A stretch of DNA of 64,000 nucleotides from Bacteroides ovatus (GTDB lineage Bacteria; Bacteroidota; Bacteroidia; Bacteroidales; Bacteroidaceae). Under the pieces are notes generated by a model. That model saw only the letters and a list, made by a program, of their open reading frames with translations. It did not search any database and had not been told where the DNA came from. The DNA lies in the NCBI RefSeq assembly GCF_001314995.1, contig NZ_CP012938.1, positions 2,356,001 through 2,420,000 of the forward strand, given 5' to 3'. Shown here in pieces: positions 20,800 through 27,769 of this stretch (position 1 is its first letter; every line of letters begins with the position of its first letter). The position numbers were made by a program, and so were the translations under genes.

Positions 20800-21342
20800 T
20801 CAAAGTGATGAACGATAGGCAGTCCGAATATATTCTCCTACTGCATTGTCATCATTGATTTCTATGTATTTTTTCAATAAATCCGCAAATCCGGATTTTA
20901 TCTGTTCCGTTTGCTTGTTCTCGCAGGCTGTAGAATATTCATCAACAGCCATGAGAAAATCCTGCATTCGTTCATTCAGCATTGTTCCTCCTGTGCAAAC
21001 CACATCGGAAATATAGGCTTGGATACTACCATTTTCTATGACAACAGGGAGGCGGTATTCCAGTCCCGATTTGCCGGCACGAATAGAAAGCACTTTTACT
21101 ACGGGCGACACAATAGTCACCGTATCGGAAAAATCAAACTTTCCGTGGACTATTTCTGCACTATCTACCAGCTGCCCGCTCGAAAAATCTTTCATATAAA
21201 CCATTTTTCCTTCGAATTCGGGCAAAGGTGTACTACCGTTAATCTCGTAACCTTTTATCTGATGCCCGGTGCAAGCCACTATCAGACATATTCCCGGAAG
21301 AAAAGATAAAAGTTTCACATATCTGTTCATTAAGCTCTTCAT
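20800..21342 (-). CDS. DUF4369-type lipoprotein without a thioredoxin domain
   Basis: 180 residues. The lipoprotein signal MNRYVKLLSFLPGICLIVAC has Cys at about 24; a second in-frame Met precedes it. The mature part (GYEINGSTPLPEFEGKMVYMKDFSSGQLVDSAEIVHGKFDFSDTV) is the DUF4369 beta-sandwich. In Bacteroidetes this domain normally heads thioredoxin/AhpC-type disulfide reductases, but the chain ends after about 70 further helical residues (TTACENKQTEQIKSGFADLLKKYIEI) with no CXXC. It may be a truncated gene or a stand-alone partner. An OMP gene lies upstream on the same strand. Confidence 0.7.
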   Translation of the reverse strand: MKSLMNRYVKLLSFLPGICLIVACTGHQIKGYEINGSTPLPEFEGKMVYMKDFSSGQLVDSAEIVHGKFDFSDTVTIVSPVVKVLSIRAGKSGLEYRLPVVIENGSIQAYISDVVCTGGTMLNERMQDFLMAVDEYSTACENKQTEQIKSGFADLLKKYIEINDDNAVGEYIRTAYRSSL

Positions 21343-22319: not shown

Positions 22320-24893
22320 TTATTTCAAGAAGATAGCAAGAAGTGCTTTCAATTGAGCGCTTGCAGCATCATAGTCTGCCTTGGCAGCATCATATTCAGC
22401 CTGTTTTACTTTGATATTTTCCTGAATACTTGCCAATGATTCAGTAATATAATCTGTATCAGTATAAGTACCTGCCGCTAATTTCTCTATATTTCTCTTA
22501 GCTTTAGCAACATCGGCCTTAGCGGCAGTGACATTTGCCAGAGCAATCATGTATTCTTCCTTAACCAAGTTTTTGATAGCTTCCAAGGAACCTAAATCAC
22601 CATTAGTAAAGTTATTATTCAAATAAACAGTGATTTCCGTTTCAATCTTACCTTTGATAATTTCATTATTGCCGTATTCTTTTTGTACTGTTTCAATATT
22701 ATCATTTACTTCTTTAAAGACTTTATCATAAGCAGCCTGGGCTTCGTCGTTAGCTTTCTTAGCTTTATCTACAGCATCCGCCAAAGCAGCATTTGCTTTA
22801 TCTTGAGCAGCCTGCTCTACAGCTTTTTGAGCAGTAAATGCTTCTTTCAAAGCTTTGTAAGTTTCTACCTGATCAATTATAGCCTGTAGACTAGCCGTTT
22901 CTGCTGTTGCCCAAATCATCTTACCAAGAGAACCATAATTACCATTCTTCAAAGCGTCTACATGGTTACCACCAGCCGCAGCTATTACTTCGTCCTTAGA
23001 TACTGGCAATCTTCTTGGATTATTACCTGAATTGAAATTATCGCTAAATACAGCAGAAGAAGCAGATTTCCACTTTTCCAATGGAGTCTTTACACTGGAA
23101 TCTTGCTCTACATCTATTAATTTTCCAATATTTTCTTTACTAATTTCATTTGCAGTAGCAATGTCACCAGCATCCCAAATGATAAAGCCTAAATCTACTC
23201 CAACAACTTTTTTAAAGTTATCAGCGTCTGCTATCAACCAAGCAGAGATTTTTTTCGTATCACTTCCTTTTGTTGCAGTTGCCTTAGTAACTTGTGCTTC
23301 TTTAGCCAATGCATCCTTATAGTATGCAACTAAAGCCGTAGCTACAGCATCAATATTAGCTTCTTTTTTTCTATCTTCTGGTTTAAGTCCATTATATTTC
23401 TTTATTGCAGCATTAGCGGCTGCCTCTGATTTCTCCAAATCTATTTTCAGACTTTCATCATAAGCTGCCATTGCATCTTCCCATGCTTTATAATCTTTAG
23501 CATAGTTCTCTTCTGCTTCTTTTTGTGCTGCAAGAGCTGTAGCCAATTGTGGTTTGGCCCATTCTATATTTTCCAAATCAACACCTTTAGTAGCCTTATC
23601 AATCAGCTTAACCCAACCATCAATCTGACTTTGTGCTTCAGTAATTTGTATACCTTTAGCATAGGCAAAAGTACCAGTATTAGAATTATAACCAGCAACA
23701 GTTGTTCCACCAGATATTGCATCATTTAATCCTTTCTTTACACTTTCAGCCTCCACTTTCTTAGAATAAGCTGCAGCTGTTTTAGCTTTGTTCTTGTTAG
23801 AGTTCTGGTTATTTTTAGCAGTCTCCAACTTATTGCTAGTAGCTTCCAAGTCAGATATCAGTTTAGGATTAGCAACTTCCAGCTTACCTTTTTCAATATT
23901 ATATTGTTGTTCCTTGACTTTTGCAGCAGCAATCTCTTCTTCCAGCTTCTTGACTTCTGCTTCCCAATCTGCAACAGTAGTATACTCATTATCCAAGATA
24001 GCTTTCAAGTTATCAGCATACTTCTGCGTCATTTCTAAAGCAAATTCTGCATTTTTCAATGCATTATCCAAAACCGCTTCTAAATTATTATCAGCTACTA
24101 TATCAGAATAGTTAGCTAATTGCTCCTGAAGTTTTTTTAAGCTACCGGCTTTATAGCCATCCACAGACTGGGTAGGATCTTCAGTAATAAGATAAACATA
24201 ATACTTAGTCGTAGAAGAATTAGTCTCCGTGCTTTCATCCGGATTTGTAGTAGTAGTGGAATTTGCAACTTCCGATGACAGAATTCTTTTGATAACAGTT
24301 GTTGAATATCCATACATTGCCTTGTCCATTGCTTGTTTTGCATAGGCGACTTGCGCTTGTACACCATTCAAACGAGCTTGTTCTTCATCTGTCAGCAATA
24401 ACTTGGAAGCTTCAATCTGTTCCATAGCTTGCTTGTAAGCTTCCTGTGCTTTAGCAGTGACAGTTTCGGCAAGAAGCATTTTTTCCTTATACTGCTCAAC
24501 AATCAATGCCTTTTCATTTTCCCACTTAGTTTTGTCAGCTTCCGCTTTTGCAATGGCAGCTTCCGCTTCCGCTTTAGCTTGTGCAGTAGCAGCTTCTTCC
24601 TTTTCAATCAGGAGTTGCTTCAACTGAATATTCAGTTCATGCAACTGCAAATCAATTTCTGCAGATTTATTCTGAAGTGCCAAACCTGCATTAACTAACT
24701 CTTGCTCTGCAACCTGTGCTTTTCTCAATTCAGCCTCTACAAGCTCAACTGCAGCTTGAGCTTTGATAAAATCAGACTTTGCTCCCCTAAGTTCTGCAAT
24801 GCCTTCCGGTTCATCGGTATCAATACATCCCGTGAATGTCGCCGTCGTACCTGCCATGAGCAAGGTTGCGACTAAATACGTCCATTTTCTCAT
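22320..24893 (-). CDS. Very large coiled-coil lipoprotein (857 residues), surface-exposed candidate
   Basis: A lipoprotein signal ends in TFTGC (Cys23). The residues after it, CIDTDEPEGIAEL, are acidic like a Bacteroidetes surface-export signal. From about residue 35 the chain is heavily charged and rich in Ala, Glu, Lys and Gln (AELVEAELRKAQVAEQELVNAG, AEAEAAIAKAEADKTKWENEKALIVEQYKEKMLL), with heptad-like spacing. A shorter non-coiled part occupies about residues 195-240 (Thr/Ser-rich, NSTTTTNPDEST) and another about 540-650. No catalytic motif. It likely forms a long surface fibre, stalk or adhesin. The promoter region is flanked by 20-bp inverted repeats and a recombinase gene. A barrel gene follows 26 bp downstream. 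Confidence 0.75.
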   Translation of the reverse strand: MRKWTYLVATLLMAGTTATFTGCIDTDEPEGIAELRGAKSDFIKAQAAVELVEAELRKAQVAEQELVNAGLALQNKSAEIDLQLHELNIQLKQLLIEKEEAATAQAKAEAEAAIAKAEADKTKWENEKALIVEQYKEKMLLAETVTAKAQEAYKQAMEQIEASKLLLTDEEQARLNGVQAQVAYAKQAMDKAMYGYSTTVIKRILSSEVANSTTTTNPDESTETNSSTTKYYVYLITEDPTQSVDGYKAGSLKKLQEQLANYSDIVADNNLEAVLDNALKNAEFALEMTQKYADNLKAILDNEYTTVADWEAEVKKLEEEIAAAKVKEQQYNIEKGKLEVANPKLISDLEATSNKLETAKNNQNSNKNKAKTAAAYSKKVEAESVKKGLNDAISGGTTVAGYNSNTGTFAYAKGIQITEAQSQIDGWVKLIDKATKGVDLENIEWAKPQLATALAAQKEAEENYAKDYKAWEDAMAAYDESLKIDLEKSEAAANAAIKKYNGLKPEDRKKEANIDAVATALVAYYKDALAKEAQVTKATATKGSDTKKISAWLIADADNFKKVVGVDLGFIIWDAGDIATANEISKENIGKLIDVEQDSSVKTPLEKWKSASSAVFSDNFNSGNNPRRLPVSKDEVIAAAGGNHVDALKNGNYGSLGKMIWATAETASLQAIIDQVETYKALKEAFTAQKAVEQAAQDKANAALADAVDKAKKANDEAQAAYDKVFKEVNDNIETVQKEYGNNEIIKGKIETEITVYLNNNFTNGDLGSLEAIKNLVKEEYMIALANVTAAKADVAKAKRNIEKLAAGTYTDTDYITESLASIQENIKVKQAEYDAAKADYDAASAQLKALLAIFLK

Positions 24894-24981
24894 AAAAGTA
24901 AATTAAATGTTATACAATTAATAAATAAAAAATTTGTTTGTACTAATTCATGATTTATTTCGCTTCACTCCCCCTCTTCCC

Positions 24982-25001
24982 GTTACTTTGTAGGTAACGG
25001 G
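24982..25001 (+). repeat. Left recombination site of invertible segment
   Basis: Arms CCCGTTAC/GTAACGGG flank the 7-bp centre TTTGTAG (full site 24979-25001). The 20 bp from 24982 to 25001 are the exact reverse complement of 25262-25281. Two inverted arms around an asymmetric centre are the usual layout for a tyrosine-recombinase crossover site. Confidence 0.85.
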
Positions 25002-25215
25002 AAAACCCTTGTGCCTGCTCTTTTGGAGTAGTCTATACTAGAAAATAATACGATATATGACGAATCTTCTTACCCCTGCTTATGAGAAAAAGTAGAGGGG
25101 CGGGAAATCTATTGCAAAATTTAGACGTTAACAAAGCTCTAAGACAAAGAATCCACGTGTTCTTCTGTGTTTATTCCTATTTTGAGTAGTTTATTAGAAA
25201 AAATGTACGATTTTG

Positions 25216-25247
25216 TTTGGATGTTTTAAGAAATATGCTCATATTTG
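25216..25247 (+). promoter_or_regulatory. Promoter inside the invertible segment, pointing away from the lipoprotein gene
   Basis: TTTG (25216-25219), a 20-bp spacer and CATATTTG (25240-25247, one mismatch) give the best promoter in the segment. As drawn it fires rightward across the right site into the 3' end of the recombinase gene, antisense. After inversion it would sit at about 25047-25016 on the minus strand, with a start near 25008 and a leader of about 115 nt to the lipoprotein ATG. Confidence 0.65.
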
Positions 25248-25261
25248 CAGCGTCTTTTCTC

Positions 25262-25281
25262 CCCGTTACCTACAAAGTAAC
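25262..25281 (-). repeat. Right recombination site of invertible segment
   Basis: CCCGTTAC, centre CTACAAA, GTAAC: the left site in inverted orientation. It ends 15 bp before the recombinase stop codon (25297). The enclosed segment is about 260 bp (25002-25261) and contains no ORF. Confidence 0.85.
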
Positions 25282-25296
25282 AGCACTATTAATCAG

Positions 25297-26235
25297 TTAC
25301 TTGCCACAAATATAGTTCCTCTTCAGCGAAGATAGAATCGTCACATTCGCTTCATCTATTTTCTTATTCTTAAAAGGTTTTAGATAAGTCTCTGTGACGA
25401 TAATAGATGAATGTCCCATCGCCTCTGAAATAATGCCTGGATGTATCTCGCAATAATATGCCATTGTAGCCCAAGTATGCCGAGCCGTATATGAGCTTAA
25501 ATCAGAAGTCAATGCAAGTACTTGTTTCAGCAACAGAAGCTGATAGTTAAAATTACGCAAAGCTATCTGATATTCCCTGTAGGTAGCTTCGGTACTTTCT
25601 CCGCCAGTCAGTATGGGAAAAAGATAAGGAGAAGCAGAATCGGTGTTCATATACTTTTTTATTAGTTTCATAGTTTCCGGCAGAAGCGTCACAGTTAGAA
25701 GCCGCCCGGTTTTTCTACGACGATAAGTAAGCACATTCCCCACCATATCCTGCTTTTTAAGATAGGCAAGATCTACAAACGGCATACCACGAAGCATGAA
25801 CATTAAGAAAAAGTACGCGCGCGTACGTTGTAATTCTTCCCTTCCCTGATGAATTTGTTTGGGAAGCTCTTTCATCAATCGTTCCATATCCTCCTTTTCC
25901 AGTGCACGCTTTCTGTCAGCACGCGTTCCTGTATAAACATACCGGAAATGATGCGGTATATAAGATGCCATACGACGGTCAACCGCGCGGTTGTACACCG
26001 CCCTCAATGTACGCATATAGGTTGAAACCGTGTTCCAACTACAATCCTTTTCCCGCAAATACGTTTCAAAACTTTTAAGAAACTCCTGATTCACTTTCTT
26101 GAATGACAGATTCCTGCTCCCATTAAATGCAATGATAGCATTCATGCTACTCCTGTAAACATGAGCAGTTCCATAATTCCCACTTTTTCGAAGCCCTTCA
26201 GCTACTTCCTTCATAAATGAAATCAAATTCCCCAT
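25297..26235 (-). CDS. Tyrosine recombinase, likely invertase for the adjacent promoter
   Basis: 312 residues, the length of Bacteroides Tsr-type invertases. An N-terminal SAM-like core-binding domain (about 1-100) precedes the catalytic domain: Arg149 in MFMLRG, Lys175 in RRKTGRLL, Arg252-His253 in SYTARHTWA (Tyr249 stands where most integrases have His), His275 in MGHSS, and the nucleophile Tyr284 in TETYL. The C-terminus is short, as in the invertase subgroup. Its 3' end abuts the right crossover site, and inversion would reorient the promoter serving the 857-residue lipoprotein. The HU-like gene 116 bp upstream on the same strand may encode an accessory factor. Confidence 0.88.
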   Translation of the reverse strand: MGNLISFMKEVAEGLRKSGNYGTAHVYRSSMNAIIAFNGSRNLSFKKVNQEFLKSFETYLREKDCSWNTVSTYMRTLRAVYNRAVDRRMASYIPHHFRYVYTGTRADRKRALEKEDMERLMKELPKQIHQGREELQRTRAYFFLMFMLRGMPFVDLAYLKKQDMVGNVLTYRRRKTGRLLTVTLLPETMKLIKKYMNTDSASPYLFPILTGGESTEATYREYQIALRNFNYQLLLLKQVLALTSDLSSYTARHTWATMAYYCEIHPGIISEAMGHSSIIVTETYLKPFKNKKIDEANVTILSSLKRNYICGK

Positions 26236-26978: not shown

Positions 26979-27090
26979 AATACTAAAGTTTATTTGAAAT
27001 ATTGATTATTAATAGAAAACTTACTCGCTATAGGTAGAAAACTTGTTCTCCCCTACAGGAAAAGTTGTTTTTCCTATAGGACAAACTAAA

Positions 27091-27169
27091 ACCGCAAGTT
27101 CTGGTTTTATAACTGAAACTTCTGATTACATAATCAAAAGTTCCGGTTTTATAATCAGAACTTGCGGTT
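27091..27169 (-). repeat. Four imperfect 21-bp repeats and a 14-bp inverted repeat in the HU-gene leader
   Basis: Read on the minus strand, units of exactly 21 bp follow each other with consensus AASTTnnGRTTATaaAACCrG. The outer ends, AACCGCAAGTTCTG (27091-27104) and its exact complement at 27156-27169, would fold into a large hairpin. Downstream, toward the ATG, CTATAGG/CCTATAG-type elements continue to 27030. The array lies between the promoter and the HU start. An in-frame 62-codon reading frame exists with a heptad-like pattern (DYKTG...YKTR), but there is no sign that it is translated. Confidence 0.65.
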
Positions 27170-27185
27170 ATAGTTTTCTTACCAA

Positions 27186-27262: not shown

Positions 27263-27769
27263 TCACCGTTTCTTTACTTTATATCCTTTCAGGGTAAAAC
27301 CAACTTCAAACAGGTTCAAAAGGGCTATCCGGATGTTATCTTCTATATAGGTCTCCATATTATCATATTTTGCAAAGTTGACGGGAAGGAGTCTGTTATT
27401 CCTCCTAAAGCTTTCATCCGGTATTTTACCGGTAAAACGTCCTTTCTTCTTCACTCCCCAACGAATGGTTTTACTACAAGGAAGAGGTATACCTATCGTC
27501 AGCACTTTTTCTTTAGTTACCGTATCGGTGATTCCATGTTTCCAGATACTGATATGGTTGGCTCCCAAATAAGTGCCGATATAAAGGACAACGGTCAGCG
27601 TCCAATCGTCCAAAGCCTCATCGGTTTGAATACCATTCACCAAATCAGAGAAATAGCCTTCAACCATTTCTCTGTCAAAACAGTTTAGTTCAGGCCATTC
27701 ACATTTCTCAAACAGTTGATGCACATTGACAGGAACCAGTAAGGTGGTTATTTCTAACTGATATTTCAT
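27263..27769 (-). CDS. Uncharacterised 168-residue protein
   Basis: No family is recognised with confidence. The chain (MKYQLEITTLLVPVNVHQLFEKCEWPELNCFDREMVEGYF) has no signal peptide or membrane segment, is mixed alpha/beta, and has conserved-looking aromatic spots (EKCEWPELNCF, DDWTLTVVLYIG). The C-terminus is basic (RRNNRLLPVNFAKYDN ... GYKVKKR). It lies directly upstream of the HU promoter on the same strand, about 46 bp before it, so it is a separate unit from HU. Immunity or toxin-neutralising proteins of this size are common in Bacteroides islands, but nothing here proves that role. Confidence 0.6.
   Translation of the reverse strand: MKYQLEITTLLVPVNVHQLFEKCEWPELNCFDREMVEGYFSDLVNGIQTDEALDDWTLTVVLYIGTYLGANHISIWKHGITDTVTKEKVLTIGIPLPCSKTIRWGVKKKGRFTGKIPDESFRRNNRLLPVNFAKYDNMETYIEDNIRIALLNLFEVGFTLKGYKVKKR

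Follow-up and report, generated by a model that had tools for sequence, protein, structure and literature searches.

A probable promoter switch of the BT1927 S-layer type in Bacteroides ovatus

The 64,000-nucleotide stretch of Bacteroides ovatus DNA analysed here (the window; contig NZ_CP012938.1, positions 2,356,001 to 2,420,000) contains a locus that is very probably an inverton, or phase-variation switch, of the BT1927 S-layer type, in which a promoter-bearing segment between two inverted recombination sites would control a lipoprotein–barrel–DUF4369 operon. Since a BT1927-type switch is already in the literature, the locus is a further example of an established kind of system, and a well-documented addition to the Bacteroides S-layer switches. 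The comparison of related loci turns the claim of inversion into a testable pattern, in which site cores vary between loci and agree within a locus. From the sequences compared, we infer inversion and silence of the OFF state in the window strain, the acting recombinase and the assembly of an S-layer.

Taketani 2015 and Porter 2020 are reportedly the primary papers on the BT1927–BT1926 locus. In Bacteroides thetaiotaomicron, according to the excerpts of published work drawn on here, BT1927 is transcribed from an invertible promoter, which a mutation in one of the repeats locks in the ON or the OFF state; its S-layer has roles against phages and complement, resistance to both being reported (PMC12548429). 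BT1926 is predicted to be an 8-stranded barrel that may act as an anchor or as a secretion partner (PMC12578637), and two further genes of the operon rise together with BT1927 (PMC12118408). The earlier note on this DNA had considered the link of such a switch to this pair of lipoprotein and barrel to be new, which does not hold, as the excerpts already place BT1927/BT1926 under an invertible promoter (PMC12548429, PMC12578637).

Architecture of the switch and its operon

The switch is bounded by two 20-nt sites (Table 1) that, as the earlier note had described, form an exact inverted repeat (100% complementary, with 260 nt between the copies) of GTTAC and GTAAC arms around a 7-bp centre; both read GTTAC-N7-GTAAC, and the core of the left site is equal to that of the right, TTTGTAG. 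The right site, CCGTTACCTACAAAGTAAC, agrees at all positions with the consensus CCGTTACCTABVRAGTAAC, already published, in the part of the source drawn on, as lying beside a site-specific integrase (PMC12118408). Homologues of the invertible segment are present at three further loci of the same genome and in relatives, and the plasmid collection searched with the segment gave no match. The segment had been described as free of ORFs, and none above 40 aa lies inside or overlaps it with ATG, GTG or TTG starts. RNAalifold on the aligned segments returned a weak covariation term (-2.35 kcal/mol), with both-side change in 8 of 40 pairs, most often within the site cores themselves. A scan of 24800-25400 for terminator-like sites found none, which says little, as shuffles average only 0.3.

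Table 1. Features of the switch and the putative operon, in window coordinates.
Feature	Position	Strand	Remarks
Third gene (DUF4369 protein, 180 aa)	20800..21342	-	PF14289; probable third gene of putative operon
OmpA-like barrel, 288 aa	21427..22293	-	PF16961, 62 bits, cut-off 26.6; BT1926-type counterpart
Lipoprotein, 857 aa	22320..24893	-	lipobox FTGC, Cys23; N-terminal 191 aa match BT1927_fam, rest divergent
Left recombination site	24982..25001	.	GTTAC-TTTGTAG-GTAAC-GGG; lipoprotein-proximal; exact inverted partner of 25262-25281
Invertible segment	25002..25261	.	260 nt; OFF orientation as assembled
Promoter-like TTTG-N20-CATATTTG	25216-25247	+	Bacteroides-type; now faces recombinase
Right recombination site	25262..25281	.	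recombinase-proximal; matches published BT1927-type consensus
Tyrosine recombinase, 312 aa	25297-26235	-	PF13102 + PF00589 above cut-off; likely invertase

Bacteroides promoters have a -33 box TTTG and a -7 box TAnnTTTG, with approximately 19–21 nt between the boxes. Against this consensus, the promoter-like sequence of the segment has one mismatch in its -7 box and a spacer of 20. Four more one-mismatch promoter rows lie in the segment on the reverse strand, at three start positions (25148, 25135 and 25118); these face the lipoprotein as assembled and are counted against the inverton reading. The candidate promoter proposed in the earlier note is singled out by conservation across loci, not by sequence score, its block being the most conserved part of the aligned segments in the conservation lines for 14 loci. 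Its direction, away from the lipoprotein and into the recombinase, is as had been claimed, and the assembly accordingly holds the OFF orientation that had been suspected. Inversion on paper brings the end of the -7 box to 25016 and predicts a 5' leader of approximately 116 nt if transcription starts 6–7 nt onward, in keeping with the roughly 115 nt ahead of the lipoprotein ATG given earlier.

The gene of the tyrosine recombinase ends 15 nt from the right site, at the distance previously noted. Its frame is open, and the R-H box and C-terminal tyrosine, both of which have catalytic roles in tyrosine recombinases, are common to the window protein and ten relatives in its own genome. A recombinase search of this genome (6,472,489 bases in one contig) gave 14 matches, four at 63–100% identity (the S class, which includes the window recombinase), seven at 41–45% and three at 29–35%. 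GTTAC-N7-GTAAC pairs at such spacing occur at 10 places in the genome, and the reversed control pattern at 0; an 11th pair has one mismatch, and a further near-match at 5925275 has two mismatches and no exact site nearby. Each of the 11 pairs adjoins one of the 11 related recombinases of the 63–100% and 41–45% groups, and the three S-class paralogues, 63–65% identical to the window recombinase, each adjoin an inverton of their own. Ten of the 11 invertons are OFF and one is ON, with all four S-class loci OFF. The remaining loci (n=7, core TTCTTAG, mostly capsule loci) comprise six OFF and one ON (L014), the orientation of L013 and L014 being judged from the -7 box alone. The sole ON inverton of the genome (G000:C1 1410309-1410594) precedes a gene that we take to be UpxY-like, as we presume the first gene to be at five of the seven loci of this class; L011 and L016 are followed by other genes.

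These seven loci belong to a second known class, the CPS-locus invertons with core TTCTTAG, which the published excerpt describes in Bacteroides xylanisolvens and B. thetaiotaomicron (PMC12118408). The window locus resembles them in site architecture, in the order recombinase, inverton, operon and in its related recombinase (41–45% identical), and differs from them in its promoter; their core is TTCTTAG throughout. A second locus of the genome, at 2310969/2311270, shares the core TTTGTAG with the window, and the two TTTGTAG loci, 70 kb apart, are in opposite relative orientation when XB1A, a strain of B. xylanisolvens, is compared with this genome. A large inversion between the two was considered and rejected: the alignments run in a single direction through each locus, which places the breakpoints away from the sites.

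Against the NCBIfam equivalog model NF053619 (BT1927_fam), the lipoprotein scores 332.5 bits with a cut-off of 1300 and is therefore not an equivalog by the NCBIfam rule; three stretches pass, the best comprising residues 1-191, and the cut-off is missed because the protein is divergent beyond approximately residue 200. At E 1e-30, BT1927_fam is found in 5 of 99 genus genomes, the window's own included, and in none of 14 control genomes. Three of these five have a gene above the cut-off (G001, G085 and G012), and since each such gene adjoins an S-class recombinase 77–78% identical to that of the window, the locus on this comparison corresponds to the BT1927 type, with most of the predicted displayed protein changed. 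The gene order of lipoprotein, OmpA-like barrel and third gene, all on one strand, likewise matches a BT1927-type locus. Among the S-class loci examined, 15 of 15 continue with a large ORF of 857–1083 aa on the recombinase strand. At all four loci of the window type, this ORF is followed by the genes of a 288-aa barrel and of a third protein of 174–180 aa; ten of the other eleven share a different N-terminus, and the L025 ORF is called from another start.

The DNA of B. xylanisolvens XB1A (L056) is 97–100% identical to the window across the inverton and approximately the first 500 nt of the lipoprotein gene, 54–67% identical across 2 kb (window 24400 to 22401) and 96–100% identical from the gene end through the barrel, as if a 2-kb cassette within the gene had been exchanged between the two. 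The barrel protein of XB1A shares 99% identity with that of the window, and those of two more distant loci (L020 and L021) share 93–94%. With switch and anchor constant and the middle of the lipoprotein replaced, the comparison suggests that the exposed coat is exchanged between strains. For B. xylanisolvens, preliminary nanopore evidence of recombination hotspots is mentioned in the published excerpt (PMC8042965).

Core identity and orientation across related loci

S-class loci came from three sources: named genome contigs (39 loci), 119 genus genomes, 34 of which together had 66 recombinase matches at E 1e-95, and five stretches of viral-contig records. Left and right sites were located independently in 70 fragments, resulting in 53 non-identical pairs, the four own loci among them, together with 1 exact duplicate (the L139 run), 15 fragments without a pair of the geometry used and 1 with an N gap. 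Dropped before this count were L080 (at a contig edge, with a failed orientation check), L061 (from the split gene of XB1A, N-terminal half), L137 and L138 (copies of L136), any named-contig locus that the genome set already contained and, of the named-contig loci, the more distant L030-L055; G082:C171 (a frame with one TGA), G148 and G078 stand outside it.

The left core equals the right core in 51 of the 53 loci, among which 11 kinds of core are present. Shuffling the right sites among the loci (20,000 trials) gave 14.8 matches on average and never more than 25, on a set of related loci from which exact duplicates alone had been removed, in which the window and XB1A count separately, and with a shuffle that ignores kinship. 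An earlier set had equal cores at 15 of 15 loci, with a shuffled mean of 3.1 and maximum of 10. Such identity within a locus is the pattern expected of a strand exchange that depends on core homology. The two unequal pairs are L130 (5834-6135), a locus with a split recombinase that is ON, and L108, where the recombinase frame is open. An invertible promoter with a surface lipoprotein as its target, the central proposal of the earlier note, is supported by these cores together with the promoter conservation and the lipobox.

A comparison of orientation across related genomes, which the earlier note had recommended, finds both orientations: the promoter is OFF in 45 of the 53 loci, ON in three (L026, L069 and L130) and without a call in five, of which a looser rule reads one as ON, one as OFF, two as 'off?' and one as none. 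The earlier note had named, as grounds against its proposal, a one-way orientation combined with an independent promoter upstream of the lipoprotein gene; three loci are ON, and the lipoprotein strand has no promoter-like pair within one mismatch of the consensus from the left site to the ATG.

Four of the stretches recovered, L136 to L139, are IMG/VR 'viral' contigs of approximately 14 kb with an S-class inverton that is flanked on both sides by a module of genes labelled by eye as DnaB-, HU- and amidase-like. Their 'viral' label is doubtful, since a similar module adjoins the own locus L010.

Proposed mechanism and competing explanations

In the mechanism that we propose, the recombinase would bind the two inverted GTTAC-N7-GTAAC sites, and strand exchange inside their identical TTTGTAG cores would flip the 260-bp promoter segment. 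Because the promoter faces the recombinase as assembled, the lipoprotein–barrel–DUF4369 operon would be OFF in this state; in the inverted state it would be transcribed from the promoter placed approximately 116 nt before the lipoprotein ATG. The product would most likely be an S-layer-type surface coat, tethered through a lipid anchor together with an 8-stranded barrel, with a strain-variable exposed part. As far as published descriptions go, the BT1927–BT1926 locus has the same elements, namely an invertible promoter between GTTAC/GTAAC sites, a neighbouring site-specific integrase, a large surface lipoprotein partnered by an 8-stranded barrel, a third operon gene and an OFF majority; the window locus differs from it in the lipoprotein past approximately residue 200, and its inversion is deduced from sequence comparison.

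The recombinase genes end -5 to 34 nt from the site among the compared site pairs, which fits an antisense geometry. In the OFF state the promoter may dampen the recombinase by antisense transcription, as it faces the 3' end of the recombinase gene and no terminator-like site was found between them; the excerpts drawn on from two B. thetaiotaomicron transcriptome papers do not mention antisense control of the recombinase. In the fimE-fimS system of Escherichia coli the recombinase gene reads towards the invertible element. The window locus is alike in that its recombinase gene points to the element, and orientation could feed back on the recombinase; unlike that system, it has one local recombinase, and its OFF promoter faces the 3' end of this gene.

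The inverton may be real and the adjacent recombinase not its invertase, or not the only one, the segment being flipped in trans by a sister enzyme. In its favour, the genome has a second locus with the core TTTGTAG and four S-class recombinases 63–100% identical to that of the window, and the cores have remained equal in XB1A, L135, G148 and G078 despite a split local recombinase. Against it, one recombinase adjoins each site pair at 11 of 11 own loci, and the two S-class loci of Bacteroides bouchesdurhonensis with a split recombinase both have decayed sites, with unequal cores in one, which is ON, and the second site missing in the other; we regard flipping in trans as rather unlikely. Far less probable is a dead relic, fixed OFF in this lineage with the lipoprotein silent or otherwise expressed. 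The OFF state of all four own S-class loci and of the corresponding locus in XB1A would fit such a relic, as would the one-mismatch promoter-like rows on the lipoprotein strand inside the segment as assembled, but the frames of the recombinase, lipoprotein, barrel and third gene are open and the site cores equal. BT1927 is likewise strongly OFF, with approximately 1 in 1,000 cells ON according to the published excerpt (PMC12548429).

Doubt of another kind attaches to the product, as the lipoprotein could be a different coat or an adhesin that uses the same switch and anchor without being an S-layer protein. Over residues 201-800 the lipoprotein shares just 16–27% identity, per 100 aa, with the L020 and L021 proteins, and a PDB sequence search with it gave no match at E 0.1. 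The N-terminus, the barrel, the kind of third gene and the switch are nevertheless all common to the window and these two loci, and the L021 protein (as G012) scores above the BT1927_fam cut-off, which leaves the alternative coat improbable, though still to be taken seriously. The S-layer switch flipped by its adjacent recombinase is the reading that we prefer.

Element ends within recombinase genes

At the locus of XB1A that corresponds to the window, the recombinase is interrupted at codons 248-253 by approximately 42 kb, and B. bouchesdurhonensis has two recombinase genes with an interruption at codons 248-253 as well. In L135, an IMG/VR record, the C-terminus of the recombinase starts at residue 249 and adjoins a different element end. 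A transposase-like ORF lies close to the B. bouchesdurhonensis locus without a second site and may be the cause of that loss.

A search of 158 genomes for a 20-letter element end, one mismatch being allowed, found 11 occurrences in 8 of them and none of the reversed control. At ten of the 11 ends, the next base opens a tyrosine recombinase C-terminus that begins Y-x-[AGS]-R-H-T; these are L165 (XB1A), L158 and L166 (B. bouchesdurhonensis), L159, L161, L162, L163, L164, L167 and L168, with L160 the sole exception. Five of the ten are closest to the S-class recombinase (59–97% identical) and five to other recombinases, the weakest being L159, with 29 aa aligned at E 4e-4. The one copy scanned, L127, has two tyrosine integrases at its element end, both with arm-binding domains.

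Integrative elements of one family may recognise the codons of the Y-x-A-R-H-T catalytic box, which tyrosine recombinase genes have in common, and split the genes at this point; where an S-layer invertase is the target, the coat could be frozen ON or OFF, and the two cores could then diverge. We give this proposal an even chance. Alternatively, some of the five matches to other recombinases may be nested elements or fragments carried by elements. A literature search returned no title on the targeting of a recombinase catalytic box by an element, which does not prove absence. If the proposal is true, the catalytic motif of a host phase-variation gene is a target through which parasitic DNA can disable that gene.

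Elsewhere in the window, a 46-nt inverted repeat (27083-27176; 85% complementary, with 2 nt between the arms) adjoins an Imm9 immunity gene (27263-27769).
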